Below, in pieces: positions 2,759 to 11,973 of a stretch of DNA of 36,566 nucleotides. Location: the IMG/VR virus record IMGVR_UViG_3300010354_000244, positions 1 to 36,566 of that record; one strand, written 5' to 3'. Position 1 is the first letter of the stretch. The number at the start of each line of letters is the position of its first letter. The notes beneath the pieces were generated by a model. It was not told the origin of the DNA. It made no database searches and saw nothing but the letters and a program-made list of their open reading frames with translations. This DNA comes from a virus. Both the position numbers and the translations under genes were made by a program.

Positions 2759-4716
2759 TTTCCGTATCTAGCCATCGTTTTCACCTCGGCTTTCAGGGGC
2801 AAGCCGTTAGCCCATGTTGGGGGGTTGCACATCCTAACGCTAAGTGACTGCGCGGCGGCGTCGGCGTTGGCTTCGGGCACCTCGAGCACAATCTCATCAT
2901 GTACGTGTAGAACCGCGCCATCGAGCCCGCGCAAAGCTGCACGCAACACATCGTTGGCGGCGGCTTGGCAGATGTTCTCGCACGCCAGACCCTTCCAGAG
3001 CCGCGCCCGTGGCCATTCTTTTGCGTCAGCGGCGGGCTTCCAGGCGGCTTTGGCGTAGCTCACCCCCTCGGCGTCAAGCCGGGCAAACGGATAGCACAGC
3101 ACCCGCCCGGACGGCAGGGCGTACCACAAATGCTGTCGATCAAAGTAGTACGTCACGCGCCCCGCTGCGAATTCGTGCCCGGGATTACGCATGGCCCGGG
3201 TGTATGCGCTTTCCAGGTCGCGCCAGTACCCTACAGCCCAAAGGTTTGCGCGACGCCACGCATCAACCATCCGGCGCGAGTCAGATTCGGGCAAATGCAC
3301 ACCGTAGACGCGGCCCATTGCGGCGAAAGCACCCACACCGCCCCCGTAACCGCAGGCCAATTCCTGCACCTTGCCAATTTGCCGCTGGTCGTCGGTCACA
3401 GCGTCAACGGCTACGCCGAAAGTCGCGGATGCATTATGTTTGTACACATCTTGGTTGTCGCGGAACAGGTCCAGCTTGGCCTCGCTGCCGTAGCCAGCCG
3501 ACAACCAGGGATTCATGCGTGCTTCGATAGCTGCCCAATCTGCTACGATCAACACATGCCCCGGCGCAGGCACAAGCGCAGGCCTAAGCATTCCCTTGAG
3601 CACATCGGTCACTCGTTTGCCGTATAGGGGGACGATTTGGTGCCCGCGCACCATGGCCTGACGCACTTCGGCTGGGTTTTTGGCTGTCTTACGGGCAAAA
3701 TTGTGAACCTGGGCTCCGTAGGATGACGCTCGGCCCGTAGCGGCCCCGCCAGCAAATACGAACGCACCCCGCACGCGCCCGTCGTCATCGTCAGCCAGGG
3801 CAGCGAGGCGGCTGAACTTGGCCACGCTTGAGGCCCACAGATCATCGGCGCACTGCACCACCTCGGCCACATCAGCGGGCACTTCGTCGGGGTTCTCTTC
3901 GGCCAGCGCAAGCAGGTTTGCGCGAACCGTCTTGTCGATGCTGTACTTTTTTTCGCCGTCTTTGTGCGCAACCATCAGTTTGCGGGCTTGATCGCCCACG
4001 CGCTCAAGCACCCACTGTCTCATTGAAGGGCTACGCACGCTTGAAACGGCACCGTCCGTCACTTCGGCCACGATTTGCTCAATCTCCACCAGTTCATCCT
4101 GGGCATACCGCACTGCCGCACGGCACAGCGCAACATCAACCCCGACGCCTCGATCATTGATGCGCTCGTTGGTGTGGTAGTCGGCAAGTTCGTCAACTGA
4201 CAGCGGGCGCAGGGCCTTCGATACTGCACGCATAGCCCGCACATCCTGGGCGCAGTAGTCGAACAGGTCCAACAAGTCCTGCTCGGTGTGCTTGAAGGGC
4301 GGGCAGCAACATTTGCGAACCAGTTGCGCCCCCTTATGGTCCTTCCGCATACCTGCACCAGCAAACCGGCCCACATCCTCTAATGAACCTGGGGCGCAGT
4401 TGGATCGGGCTTGCGTAGCGGTGCAATAGTATTGCTCCAGCTTCGGCACCGGCACGCCGTGGTCAGGCCCCAGCACATACGACCAGATCAGCCGCTCAAA
4501 GGCGGCGTTGTGGGCGTAGATCATTTGCCCATCCCGCACTGCGTTGGCCACAGCTTGCGGGAACGGGTCAACTGCCGCTCGCCACACGCTTACCTCGCCA
4601 TCGTCAATCGCCCAAGCCATACACAACACCTTCGTGCTGATGTCGCAGGCGTAGTTGTAAACCCCTCTGGCGGGTAGGTCGCACTCAGACCGCGTTTCAA
4701 AATCCACCCAAATCAT
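2755..4716 (-). CDS. family A DNA polymerase with 3'-5' exonuclease
   Basis: The 653-aa replicative polymerase has a proofreading domain with exo I DFET (5-8), exo II NAAFE (70-74) and exo III YCAQD (154-158). The polymerase domain carries motif A VADWAAIEAR (391-400, catalytic D393), motif B RQIGKVQELACGYGGG (445-460) and motif C HDEI (606-609). All key acidic residues are present. It is shorter than bacterial Pol I because the 5' nuclease domain is absent, as is usual for phage enzymes of this type. A strong intrinsic terminator precedes it inside the operon, so expression may be lower than that of the upstream DUF2815 gene. It is coupled to the primase-helicase by a GTGA overlap. Confidence 0.95.
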   Translation of the reverse strand: MIWVDFETRSECDLPARGVYNYACDISTKVLCMAWAIDDGEVSVWRAAVDPFPQAVANAVRDGQMIYAHNAAFERLIWSYVLGPDHGVPVPKLEQYYCTATQARSNCAPGSLEDVGRFAGAGMRKDHKGAQLVRKCCCPPFKHTEQDLLDLFDYCAQDVRAMRAVSKALRPLSVDELADYHTNERINDRGVGVDVALCRAAVRYAQDELVEIEQIVAEVTDGAVSSVRSPSMRQWVLERVGDQARKLMVAHKDGEKKYSIDKTVRANLLALAEENPDEVPADVAEVVQCADDLWASSVAKFSRLAALADDDDGRVRGAFVFAGGAATGRASSYGAQVHNFARKTAKNPAEVRQAMVRGHQIVPLYGKRVTDVLKGMLRPALVPAPGHVLIVADWAAIEARMNPWLSAGYGSEAKLDLFRDNQDVYKHNASATFGVAVDAVTDDQRQIGKVQELACGYGGGVGAFAAMGRVYGVHLPESDSRRMVDAWRRANLWAVGYWRDLESAYTRAMRNPGHEFAAGRVTYYFDRQHLWYALPSGRVLCYPFARLDAEGVSYAKAAWKPAADAKEWPRARLWKGLACENICQAAANDVLRAALRGLDGAVLHVHDEIVLEVPEANADAAAQSLSVRMCNPPTWANGLPLKAEVKTMARYGK

Positions 4717-9399: not shown

Positions 9400-9611
9400 T
9401 GGCGCGTATAGAGTGCCCCGTGTGCGGGGCGGATACCAGAGTGTATGAATCGCGGGGCAACACCCGCCGAAGAGAATGCACAAACGGACATAGATTTTTG
9501 ACCGTAGAGCAATGGCAGAAAAACCTACCCCAAAAAAGGAAACGAAGTGAGCAATTGGCTAACGCATGGAGCACCAAAGAAACCACCGGCCATGCAAGCA
9601 ACGAAGGCTAG
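9399..9611 (+). CDS. zinc-ribbon protein resembling the NrdR N-terminus, 70 aa
   Basis: The ATG overlaps the previous TGA (TGATG). The N-terminus MARIECPVCGADTRVYESRG followed by NTRRRECTNGHRFLTVE resembles the zinc ribbon of NrdR regulators: CPVC, then a basic RRRECTNGH, then RFLTVE. The four probable ligands are C6, C9, the Cys of RREC and the His of NGH. The ATP-cone domain of true NrdR is absent, so this is a stand-alone zinc ribbon probably binding nucleic acid. Such short forms are known in phages. The C-terminal third is polar and disordered. Confidence 0.75.
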   Translation: MARIECPVCGADTRVYESRGNTRRRECTNGHRFLTVEQWQKNLPQKRKRSEQLANAWSTKETTGHASNEG

Positions 9612-9618
9612 AAGGTTG

Positions 9619-9735
9619 ATGCAGTGTTACAAGTGCAACGAAACAAAACGGCCTGAATTCGGTGTGGAAATTTCAGCCGATCAATTCATGTGTAATGAGT
9701 GTTACCGGGTAACACTTTGGAGACGTAGGAAATGA
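9619..9735 (+). CDS. small zinc-ribbon protein, 38 aa
   Basis: The product MQCYKCNETKRPEFGVEISA continues with DQFMCNECYRVTLWRRRK. Two CxxC pairs (CYKC and CNEC) about 27 residues apart make a minimal zinc ribbon, followed by a basic tail. The ATG at 9619 has a GAAGG ribosome site just after the previous stop. In-frame starts at GTG 9547 and ATG 9592 would add residues over the end of the preceding gene. The stop overlaps the next ATG (ATGA). Function unknown; RNA, DNA or protein binding is possible. Confidence 0.6.
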   Translation: MQCYKCNETKRPEFGVEISADQFMCNECYRVTLWRRRK

Positions 9736-9953
9736 ATTCAATTCTTATTGTTGCGGCTGTGAAGTATGCGCTTTTGAGCCGTGATGCTTGGCTTGAGGCT
9801 CAATGTGTAGATTGGCTTGGGGCCAATTGGTACATTCTGAGCGATAGTGCTCAGACTGAGATTCGCCGTAGCATAGAGCGAGAATTTGAATCAAGCTATG
9901 AATATGCAAATAATGTATGGCGGGGAATTAGACAGATTTGGATTGGAGATTGA
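9732..9953 (+). CDS. hypothetical phage protein, 73 aa
   Basis: The product begins MNSILIVAAVKYALLSRDAW and is rich in aromatic residues with many Trp (DAWLEAQCVDWLGANWY, NVWRGIRQIWIGD). The first 15 residues are hydrophobic but the helix is short for a membrane anchor. The start overlaps the previous stop by ATGA, and the gene ends two bases before the next start. No family recognised. Confidence 0.6.
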   Translation: MNSILIVAAVKYALLSRDAWLEAQCVDWLGANWYILSDSAQTEIRRSIEREFESSYEYANNVWRGIRQIWIGD

Positions 9954-9954
9954 A

Positions 9955-10170
9955 ATGACACGCGATGAAATCATCAGCATGGCGCGGGAGGCAGACAGCT
10001 ACGCGAAGGGCCAAACGGACGATCTCCATTACGAGCGTGAGCTTCGGGATATACGCTTCGCCGCCCTTGTCGCTGGAAAAGAGCGTGAGGAATGCGCGAA
10101 GTTGGCTGCATGGATTCTAAAAATGCCTGAAAACGATGTGAGTTCTGCCATCCTAGCAAGGGGGCAATGA
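9955..10170 (+). CDS. hypothetical phage protein, 71 aa
   Basis: The product begins MTRDEIISMAREADSYAKGQ and shows the MTRxEIIxMAREAG-type opening widespread among small hypothetical phage proteins, followed by a Glu/Arg-rich helix (GKEREECAKLAAWI). That opening often belongs to proteins of phage early accessory regions. The ATG at 9955 was chosen over upstream in-frame starts because it directly follows the previous stop and has GGAG in the end of the preceding gene. The next gene starts on the base after its stop. Confidence 0.65.
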   Translation: MTRDEIISMAREADSYAKGQTDDLHYERELRDIRFAALVAGKEREECAKLAAWILKMPENDVSSAILARGQ

Positions 10171-10455: not shown

Positions 10456-10459
10456 AGCC

Positions 10460-10549
10460 CCACAACGCCTTTGAGTTAACGGGCGCGAGCGCCCAAGCAG
10501 GAGAAGGAACACATGCCGAACGAGCGTCCCGTTGAACGAATGGTTAGGC
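10460..10549 (-). repeat. attC-like site 1 (degenerate outer left arm)
   Basis: The right arm is CCCGTTGAACGAATGGTTAGGC in two pieces: inner CCCGTTGAACGA and outer GTTAGGC (10543-10549). The left arm has an eroded outer box ending in AAC (10460-10466), then TTTGAGTTAACGGGCGC. The inner arms pair as AACGGG-CGC with GCG-T-CCCGTT, leaving one bulged T, as in the other sites. The centre contains a GGGCGC/GCGCCC hairpin and an AGGAG ribosome-binding sequence followed by an ATG at 10513. Confidence 0.6.
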
Positions 10550-10572
10550 GGCGTTTTGAAAGGAAACCATGA
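10513..10572 (+). CDS. possible 19-codon leader peptide inside attC-like site 1
   Basis: MPNERPVERMVRRRFERKP is encoded from an ATG in the variable centre, through the right arm of the site, to a TGA that overlaps the start of the next gene (ATGATG at 10569-10574). AGGAG and AAGGAA lie just upstream of the ATG. The peptide is very basic and is probably translated for coupling rather than for its own function. This is an inference from signals; conservation was not tested. Confidence 0.3.
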   Translation: MPNERPVERMVRRRFERKP

Positions 10573-10844
10573 TGACAAAGACACAACGTAAATGCACTTG
10601 CCACCCTGACGACAACCCGCCGAAGCCATGCGCTCAGCGGTACGCGATGGGGGAGTGCAAGGCGTATCAATGTGGGCGCGATGACGCAATGAAATGGGCT
10701 GATGCAACATGGGCTGAGACGGTGCGCCAAACGCAAGCCGCCTATCAGGAAAAATTGGATGCCCTTGGCTTAGCGATTGTCAATGCTGGATACACATGGA
10801 CTACGGAAATGCGAGAGGCGTATGAGATGCCGCCTAACGCTTGA
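10569..10844 (+). CDS. cysteine-rich cassette protein, 91 aa
   Basis: The product begins MMTKTQRKCTCHPDDNPPKP and has CxCH, then C and CKAYQC, enough ligands for a small zinc site in the first 40 residues. The rest is helical (WAETVRQTQAAYQEKLDALG). It starts at tandem ATGs with AAAGGAAA upstream and stops at TGA 10842-10844 inside the left arm of attC-like site 2. The gene is thus bounded by attC-like repeats on both sides. Sequence style is that of a phage accessory protein; function unknown. Confidence 0.7.
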   Translation: MMTKTQRKCTCHPDDNPPKPCAQRYAMGECKAYQCGRDDAMKWADATWAETVRQTQAAYQEKLDALGLAIVNAGYTWTTEMREAYEMPPNA

Positions 10845-10888
10845 GCTAACCGGCGCCGTAAGGCGTCCGGTTGAGCGAATGGTTAGGC
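10832..10888 (-). repeat. attC-like site 2 (best preserved, 57 bp)
   Basis: Perfect outer arms GCCTAAC (10832-10838) and GTTAGGC (10882-10888) match the integron consensus RYYYAAC/GTTRRRY. An unpaired 9-nt spacer follows on each side. The inner arms AACCGGCGCC and GGCGTCCGGTT pair with a single bulged T, around a GTAA loop. The preceding gene stops inside the left arm. Confidence 0.75.
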
Positions 10889-10920
10889 ATTGCCTGTTTG
10901 ATAGCAAAGGAACTACCAAA

Positions 10921-11244
10921 ATGAGCTTGGATGTTTTGCTGACAGATGCTGATGGAGTCGAGGTTTACTCGGACAACATTACGCACAACTTAGGCAAGAT
11001 GGCGGACGAGGCAGGAATCTATGCTTGCCTGTGGCGTCCCGACGAGAACGGCATCACGCATGCAAAGCAGATCGTGGAACCGCTGGCGGCTGGGCTGGCG
11101 CTGTTGGTGGCAGATCCTGCTCGGTTTGAGAAGCTGAATGCGCCTAACGGGTGGGGCAAATGGAAGGACTTTGTGCCGTGGTGCGCTCGCTACTTGCAGG
11201 CTTGTCGCAACAACCCCGAAGCGCTGGTGCGCGTGTGCCGTTGA
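10921..11244 (+). CDS. phage accessory protein, cassette-borne, 107 aa
   Basis: The product begins MSLDVLLTDADGVEVYSDNI and contains THNLGKMADEAGIY, WRPDENGITHA and NGWGKWKDFVPWCARYL. This pattern (N-terminal D(L/V)L, ITHNLGxMAxEAGIY, WRPxExGI and NGWGxYxxFVxWVxxYL) is widespread in phage and prophage small proteins of unknown function. Start has GGAA upstream and lies 32 bases after attC-like site 2; the stop lies 9 bases before site 3. Soluble and mixed alpha/beta by composition. A recognisable phage protein inside an attC-bounded unit is notable. Confidence 0.8.
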   Translation: MSLDVLLTDADGVEVYSDNITHNLGKMADEAGIYACLWRPDENGITHAKQIVEPLAAGLALLVADPARFEKLNAPNGWGKWKDFVPWCARYLQACRNNPEALVRVCR

Positions 11245-11253
11245 ATTGCCAAT

Positions 11254-11355
11254 GCCTAACGCTTGAGCTAACCGCGCCAATGACGGCGCTACAGGAGCAT
11301 GAAGATGGAACAAAGCAACACGCCGGCATTGGTCCGGTTGAGCGAGGGGTTAGGC
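11254..11355 (-). repeat. attC-like site 3 (long centre, 102 bp)
   Basis: Outer arms GCCTAAC (11254-11260) and GTTAGGC (11349-11355) are intact. The left inner part GCTTGAGCTAACCG is identical to site 2, and the right inner part CCGGTTGAGCGA is nearly the same. The centre is about 50 nt long and carries an AGGAG sequence and the start codon of the next gene, so the right arm is translated as part of that protein. Confidence 0.7.
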
Positions 11356-11625
11356 CCCTGGGTTGAGTGCCCGCGCATGACACGTTGGGGCTCTGGCATG
11401 GTGGAGGCACTTGTTGCCGTGACCAAGGACGAGACAGCGCGTGTGATTGCGTCCGAGGATGCCGCGCCAATGGTGGCAGACGCCATTGTCTCAGCCGTGC
11501 GCAAGCCGCTGACGCTGGCGCAATGCCGGGCATTGGTGGCGCAGCACTTTGAGCATGGCGAGATGAATGGCGACGACGTGACGCTGATTCGCGCCGTGGA
11601 GCGTGCTCACGGTATTGGGGCCTAA
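11305..11625 (+). CDS. cassette-borne hypothetical protein, 106 aa
   Basis: With the ATG at 11305 (AGGAG eight bases upstream) the product begins MEQSNTPALVRLSEGLGPWV, and its first residues are encoded by the right arm of attC-like site 3. A second possible start is ATG 11377, beyond the site, giving MTRWGSGMVEALVAVTKDET. The remainder is an acidic helical protein with SEDAAPMVADAIVSAVRKPL and a C-terminal ERAHGIGA. The stop TAA (11623-11625) is inside the GCCTAAC box of the partial site 4. No family is recognised. The choice of start decides whether the attC arm is coding. Confidence 0.65.
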   Translation: MEQSNTPALVRLSEGLGPWVECPRMTRWGSGMVEALVAVTKDETARVIASEDAAPMVADAIVSAVRKPLTLAQCRALVAQHFEHGEMNGDDVTLIRAVERAHGIGA

Positions 11626-11647
11626 CGCACATTAGCAGGCGTTGAAC
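11620..11647 (-). repeat. partial attC-like site 4
   Basis: A GCCTAACGC box identical to the left end of sites 2 and 3 is followed by a diverged inner part with a GGCGT/ACGCC hairpin (about 11638-11650). No clear GTTAGGC partner is found downstream; GTTGAAC (11641-11647) fits GTTRRRY but would give a very short site. It is probably a decayed or truncated copy. The 11648-11781 stretch otherwise holds no convincing gene; a 22-codon frame at 11712-11780 ending just before the next ATG is possible but unsupported. Confidence 0.45.
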
Positions 11648-11781
11648 GCCACATAATGCACACGGCTACTAGGTAAAGCATGGACAAAGACAGGCCGAAT
11701 GCTCGGTGAGTATGCGAATGTCTCTCCCATACAATAGCCCTTGGTTGCGCTTGGGCCTGTCGCCATTCATAGGAGCATGAA

Positions 11782-11973
11782 ATGGAAAAGAAGCTTTGCA
11801 CATACTGTATGCAAACTGGCCATAGGGCCAGCCATTGCCCACATCGACCAGCTGAATGCTGCACAGAAATCGGCGCAGATGCTCAAGATGAGCCGCTCAT
11901 CCCGTCCTGGATATTGGGCGTCGCATGTGTTGCATGCTTGATCGGTTACACGCTGATGTTTTTCGTGCTCTAG
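11782..11973 (+). CDS. zinc-knuckle membrane-anchored protein, 63 aa
   Basis: The product begins MEKKLCTYCMQTGHRASHCP, a complete CCHC zinc knuckle (C-x2-C-x4-H-x4-C) as in retroviral nucleocapsid-type RNA/ssDNA binders, and ends in a membrane helix (about 42-63, SWILGVACVACLIGYTLMFF). A good AGGAG site precedes the ATG. A nucleic-acid-binding knuckle tethered to the membrane is an unusual combination. It is the last rightward gene, and its TAG shares bases with the stop of the convergent holin. Function unknown. Confidence 0.7.
   Translation: MEKKLCTYCMQTGHRASHCPHRPAECCTEIGADAQDEPLIPSWILGVACVACLIGYTLMFFVL

Follow-up and report, generated by a model that had tools for sequence, protein, structure and literature searches.

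An attC array of reversed polarity at the downstream end of a phage operon

The window analysed here is the whole of virus record IMGVR_UViG_3300010354_000244 (36,566 bases), which encodes a family A DNA polymerase (Pfam) and a large terminase (phrog_2; closest named relative phage DSL-LC05, 74%). A cassette array formed the tail of a rightward operon, right before a convergent endolysin gene (Table 1). An initial annotation, made from the sequence alone, had claimed attC-like sites between the genes of a phage operon, and three such sites were confirmed by a covariance model and an arm profile. The three cassette units drawn by the cut-site rule agreed with the range that had been proposed (10460-11650).

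Table 1. Features of the cassette array and its flanks in the window.
Feature	Position	Strand	Remarks
Left flank, conserved	9550-9981	+	81-84% to relatives L124 and L260
Gene A, 94 aa	10171-10455	+	phrog_4029, E 9e-6; final operon gene ahead of the array
attC1	10457-10549	-	R1 30.2 bits, E 3e-5; profile 39.0; array end farthest from the attI-like site
Leader ORF MPNERPVERMVRRRFERKP, 19 residues	10513-10572	+	Begins in attC1 loop, runs through its arm
Gene B, 91 aa	10569-10844	+	Unit 10466-10837; stop within attC2 spacer
attC2, complete, 57 nt	10832-10888	-	R1 66.3 bits, E 8e-14
Gene C, 107 aa	10921-11244	+	Unit 10838-11259; phrog_4019, E 6e-12
attC3, complete, 102 nt, long variable loop	11254-11355	-	R1 45.0 bits, E 1e-8
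AGGAG ribosome site and gene D ATG	11293-11301	+	Inside attC3 loop (from sequence)
Gene D, 108 aa	11299-11625	+	Unit 11260-11625, of which the gene D TAA is the final triplet; possible inner start 11377
Lone attI-like simple site GCCTAACGCACATTAGCA	11620-11637	-	Conserved right flank starts here; kept in L124 and L260
Conserved small gene, zinc-knuckle-like	11782-11973	+	Just past the attI-like site; 89% aa to L124, 69% to L260

The covariance model, R1, was built from 15 bacterial attCs with the window sites excluded. Run on the window, as the initial annotation had suggested, it matched all three sites on the minus strand with 30.2-66.3 bits. On the plus strand attC2 scored only 14.2 bits and attC3 only 8.8 bits, compared with 66.3 and 45.0 bits on the minus strand, so that the arms, spacer and extrahelical base gave these sites the strand polarity of attCs. 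An independent arm profile scored attC2 at 77, attC3 at 67 and attC1 at 39; the best score per shuffle, over 100 shuffles of the window, had a mean of 6 and a peak of 22. The outer boxes GCCTAAC and GTTAGGC that had been described for the repeats were present on both sides of attC2 and attC3, which form perfect R''/R' palindromes and fit the box pair RYYYAAC and GTTRRRY perfectly. At attC1 that description held on one side only, with R' degenerate (GTTGTGG/CCACAAC) and the site still recognisable. The unpaired spacer, the inner L''/L' arms and the single extra base, also part of the original description, were found in both attC2 and attC3. The DNA folds lay far below those of shuffles for attC2 on each of its strands (z -4.5 and -4.7) and for attC3 (z -3.95), and the fold of attC1 was no better than shuffles (z +0.6). 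Given the degenerate R' and poor fold of attC1, cassette B may be stuck.

The sites resembled those of bacteria. The attC2 region was about 79% identical to the attC of class 1 cassettes (aadA, aadB; best E 5e-7, blastn) and had matches in 1904 plasmids (best about 79%), and the right arm of attC3 was identical, letter for letter, to one in a Rhodocyclaceae array. Rfam gave no match at the gathering threshold. True sites in the Shewanella phage and at a number of class 1 loci escaped a strict box scan, and the profile and covariance model were therefore built instead. A 24-nt exact arm had no match in bacterial genomes, and a shorter arm was used. Among 150 viral attC sites, 209 compensatory cells were counted compared with 68.5 in shuffles (reached in 0 of 500), and this covariation shows that the attC fold is kept in phages. 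The region 1991-5164 of L016, a viral contig of 97 kb with a gene C homolog of its own, holds three near-identical attC-like sites of 87-88 nt, two of them with degenerate outer boxes. In Rhodanobacter and Dyella loci (L134-L252), a subtype of attC whose L' arm contains an additional C (GTCCGCCTTGAACGA) is frequent; it is poorly fitted by the pairing used here.

The stop of the leader ORF overlapped the start of gene B (ATGA), an arrangement also present in relative L260. The codon model placed gene B on the plus strand (10.3 compared with -24.2 for minus). Gene C, which had been singled out earlier as a recognisable phage-family protein, proved to belong to phrog_4019 and had 37 viral homologs; two other phages likewise carry it between attCs (the arrays of L003 and L004), and it has relatives in further viral contigs in which the model detected no attC. 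In phage TJE1 (L305) a gene C homolog (44%, 48869-49189) lies directly before the published attC cluster, outside it. No relatives of gene D were found among viral contigs. A weak Pfam match of gene D to phage lysozyme fell below the cut-off and was dropped.

All three attCs of the window were on the minus strand and genes B, C and D on the plus strand. This opposite orientation had escaped the initial annotation, as had the facts that the genes begin in or just after one attC and finish in the next, and that a lone attI-like box closes the array downstream. In a bacterial-type cassette the gene lies upstream of its attC and on the same strand; genes B and C were opposite by the codon model. 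As a yardstick we used the class 1 array L253, where the match to the window plus strand runs opposite to aadB, aadA1 and blaOXA-10. The window sites therefore point canonically along the minus strand with the genes on the plus strand, and the array is accordingly not of bacterial type.

The reversed layout recurred in dozens of other viral contigs. Viral loci were picked by exact arm patterns with gene direction ignored, five at first and then 42, and most of them held arrays of 2 to 16 sites (covariance model, profile). Strand was called with a codon model for which genes lying outside the arrays served as the training set; the model and the profile were both built for this analysis. Among viral genes between attCs, 122 were opposite to the sites, 7 were on the same strand and 20 were ambiguous; after removal of duplicate contigs and of L287 the count was 115 opposite against 1 same (116 calls). 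Bacterial arrays found by an arm pattern gave 384 same and 50 opposite with the codon model of the viral case, and 297 same and 33 opposite with their own; the bacterial count set against the viral 115 to 1 was 299 same and 31 opposite (330 calls). The contrast between viral and bacterial polarity was stable at codon-model margins of 5, 10 and 15. By contig, 37 viral contigs were wholly reversed (34 without duplicates), 1 was mixed and 3 had no call; the sole viral contig of wholly same polarity, L287, holds a complete integron integrase. Strand calls from the longest ORF were sound for bacterial arrays (632 same, 36 opposite); for the short, GC-rich genes of the viral contigs they were noisy (43 same, 65 opposite), and for that reason they were replaced by the codon model. 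Four reverse-polarity cassettes were also seen on L176, a 3 kb contig in a Verrucomicrobiota MAG bin with a protein that resembles gene Y of L124 by eye; it is probably a phage contig within a bacterial bin.

As a result of the reversed polarity, a phage cassette has its attC first and its gene second, and reads C-attC-gene-YTAA/C in the gene sense (the slash marks the cut). The stop codon coincided exactly with the TAA of the next attC R box in 41 of 115 called genes, and in a further 10 of the 115 the stop fell at the position that the TGA takes within GCCTAACGCTTGA, as it does in gene B. Of 167 viral attCs, 38 had a loop with a ribosome site and a start from which reading proceeds outward through the arm, compared with 1 on the other strand; the same count in 844 bacterial sites gave 30 and 7. 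An effect of attC on translation in bacteria is already known (Jacquier 2009, from its title as cited in PMC8946536), and the loop-borne starts suggest that phage cassettes may use their attCs in translation as well.

The initial annotation had called for a comparison of cassettes and breakpoints in related phages. In this same-site comparison of three phages (the window, L124 and L260), cassette content differed and the borders lay at the integrase cut. To the left and to the right of the array, L124 and L260 matched the window backbone (76-87%, near flanks); between these flanks they held different genes and attCs. Their right-hand homology began at window position 11619/11620, at the box GCCTAAC (GGCTAAC in L124), and the last gene was a different one in each of the three phages, ending every time in the TAA of that right-flank box. 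Cassette X, common to L124 and L260 (81%), had both its borders exactly at YTAA/C. Over all array contigs, 8 of 94 homology ends lay within 3 nt of a cassette cut, compared with 0.9 expected. L003, L004 and most other array phages had little backbone in common with the window, and the evidence there is therefore of shared cassettes and not of same-site swaps. The profile found no attC in the nearest named phages (DSL-LC05, MW202483), and 80 helicase relatives had no covariance-model match at the limits used; arrays are thus no constant trait of this broader set of phages. Relative L122 has no array and carries half an attC (one arm, about 2805-2825, minus strand) directly upstream of its homolog of gene A (75% aa), which is likely a deletion scar.

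After the box at 11620 comes an inverted TTAG, so that the two are arranged as in an attI simple site. Sites of this kind stood where the last gene stops in 11 of 24 arrays, compared with 1 of 1022 other gene ends; these counts describe the arrays and do not test the pattern, which was drawn from the same arrays. The motif was thus present at only about half of the array ends. Like an attI simple site, it consists of a lone R box and an inverted TTAG box (as in L274, GCCTAACCGTTATTAGGC) at the canonical start of the array; unlike it, the window site has no accompanying intI, and no DR1 or DR2 repeats were identified. Judged by this layout, the box may function as an attI. The zinc-knuckle-like protein that adjoins the site was observed next to it in related phages, and also in L122, where the site is missing.

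The earlier statement that the phage has no integrase agreed with our searches, as neither TIGR02249 nor PF00589 had a match in the window. The window thus lacks the integrase gene of a complete integron and has the make-up of a CALIN, with three attCs inside 900 nt and no TIGR02249 match in the record. Among 45 viral records, many of them fragments, an integron integrase above the cut-off was found only in L287/G039. No PF00589 match was found in 37 of 43 array contigs, the window included and many being fragments; the other 6 carried some tyrosine recombinase. The bacteria with near-identical attC arms carry IntI, and the Rhodocyclaceae genome with the attC3-identical right arm has integron integrases above the cut-off. 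IntI1 in E. coli is reported to recombine 5 of 6 phage attCs tested (PMC9892861). Single-stranded DNA favours attC folding, and phage infection is one named source of it. Host integrases would be the simplest source of the enzyme. A Pc promoter would point the wrong way here, as the genes run in the sense of the phage operon. A 120-residue piece similar to the N-terminus of IntI was observed close to the array of G025 (the contig of L273; 18372-18734, minus strand; L310). It is about 45% identical to plasmid IntI and lacks the catalytic domain; it resembles an intI remnant in a phage, and suggests that this array descended from a full integron.

The sites, their polarity, the lack of a detectable integrase, the cut-precise differences between relatives and the conserved attI-like end were observed directly. 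With these in hand, we consider it probable that the locus is an integron cassette array without an integrase that has become adapted to use by phages, with its polarity reversed and its cassettes exchanged by an integrase supplied by the host. On this model, the rightward operon ends in three single-gene cassettes, bounded by gene A on one side and by the lone attI-like box on the other. Each cassette would comprise, in the operon sense, an attC (whose loop in some cases contains a ribosome site and start), a gene, and a stop that may be the TAA of GCCTAA/C. Cassettes would be gained, lost and exchanged between phages, possibly to this day, by site-specific recombination at YTAA/C (G/TTARR on the attC bottom strand), and the enzyme would most likely be an integron integrase that the infected bacterium provides and that acts on single-stranded DNA while the phage replicates. 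A bacterial-type cassette, once captured, would be antisense in the phage operon, as a phage cassette would be in a host integron, and polarity should therefore keep two largely separate cassette pools. We also favour, with somewhat more reserve, the idea that phages have a cassette pool of their own, walled off by its reversed polarity, with starts in the attC, stops in the cut box, a phage attI-like landing site and the host integrase.

Could the array instead be an ordinary CALIN, detached from a bacterial integron and carried as a passenger? Phage CALINs are already known (PMC9892861), and the arms match Rhodocyclaceae and class 1 sites. However, in a fragment of bacterial origin genes and attCs would still share a strand, as they do in TJE1 and in 299 of 330 bacterial calls. 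With 37 viral contigs wholly reversed and a gene C of phage type, passive carriage appears very unlikely. Ribosome sites and starts in the loop and overlapping leader ORFs would also be expected if the repeats now acted in mRNA, where they would form translated leaders or hairpins that couple neighbouring operon genes, and had lost recombination. We regard this as very unlikely, since the strand-specific extra base and the cut box are retained and close relatives differ in cassettes with borders at the cut; moreover, roles in mRNA and in recombination can coexist.

The enzyme and the process of exchange could also differ from those proposed. An unrecognised recombinase encoded by the phages themselves would suit the apparently phage-only pool, the reversed polarity and the piece of IntI (N-terminal) that lies near the G025 array, but the absence of a PF00589 recombinase from 37 of the 43 array contigs, the window included, makes it highly improbable. 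Homologous or illegitimate recombination between short repeats could have produced a mosaic, as the arms are near-identical between sites. Its borders would then fall anywhere in the arms, and they fall instead at the A/C cut of a 7-nt box, as seen in cassette X and in the excess of homology ends within 3 nt of the cut; we therefore give this explanation hardly any weight. Exchange by a host-supplied integron integrase remains our preferred reading.

If this reading is true, integron recombination also drives the modular evolution of phages that have no integrase, which would explain the swapping of small accessory genes as exact units, and cassette polarity would be a simple rule for separating phage from bacterial cassettes in metagenomes. 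The array also bears on two open questions, the origin of cassettes and the translation of genes beside attC hairpins.

Phage CALINs are published, and the reversed-polarity array is a variant of these; in the literature searched, of which coverage was partial, we found no account of reversed polarity. The CALINs of virulent phages (Qi et al. 2023, PMC9892861; for example Tetrasphaera phage TJE1) are like the window in having attC arrays without intI in phage genomes. In contrast to the window, TJE1 has bacterial polarity, with attCs and genes both on the plus strand by the model of this analysis, and the passages of PMC9892861 consulted do not describe reversed polarity, loop-borne starts or an attI-like end. 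Complete integrons in temperate phages (Shewanella M16-3; viral contig L287/G039) likewise place attC arrays on phage contigs, but they carry intI and have bacterial polarity (PMC9892861). The class 1 aadA and aadB cassettes share with the window, beyond the similarity of the attC2 region, the same boxes, extra base and cut site. However, in bacterial cassettes the gene stands before its attC on the same strand, whereas in the window it follows its attC on the opposite strand, with no intI.
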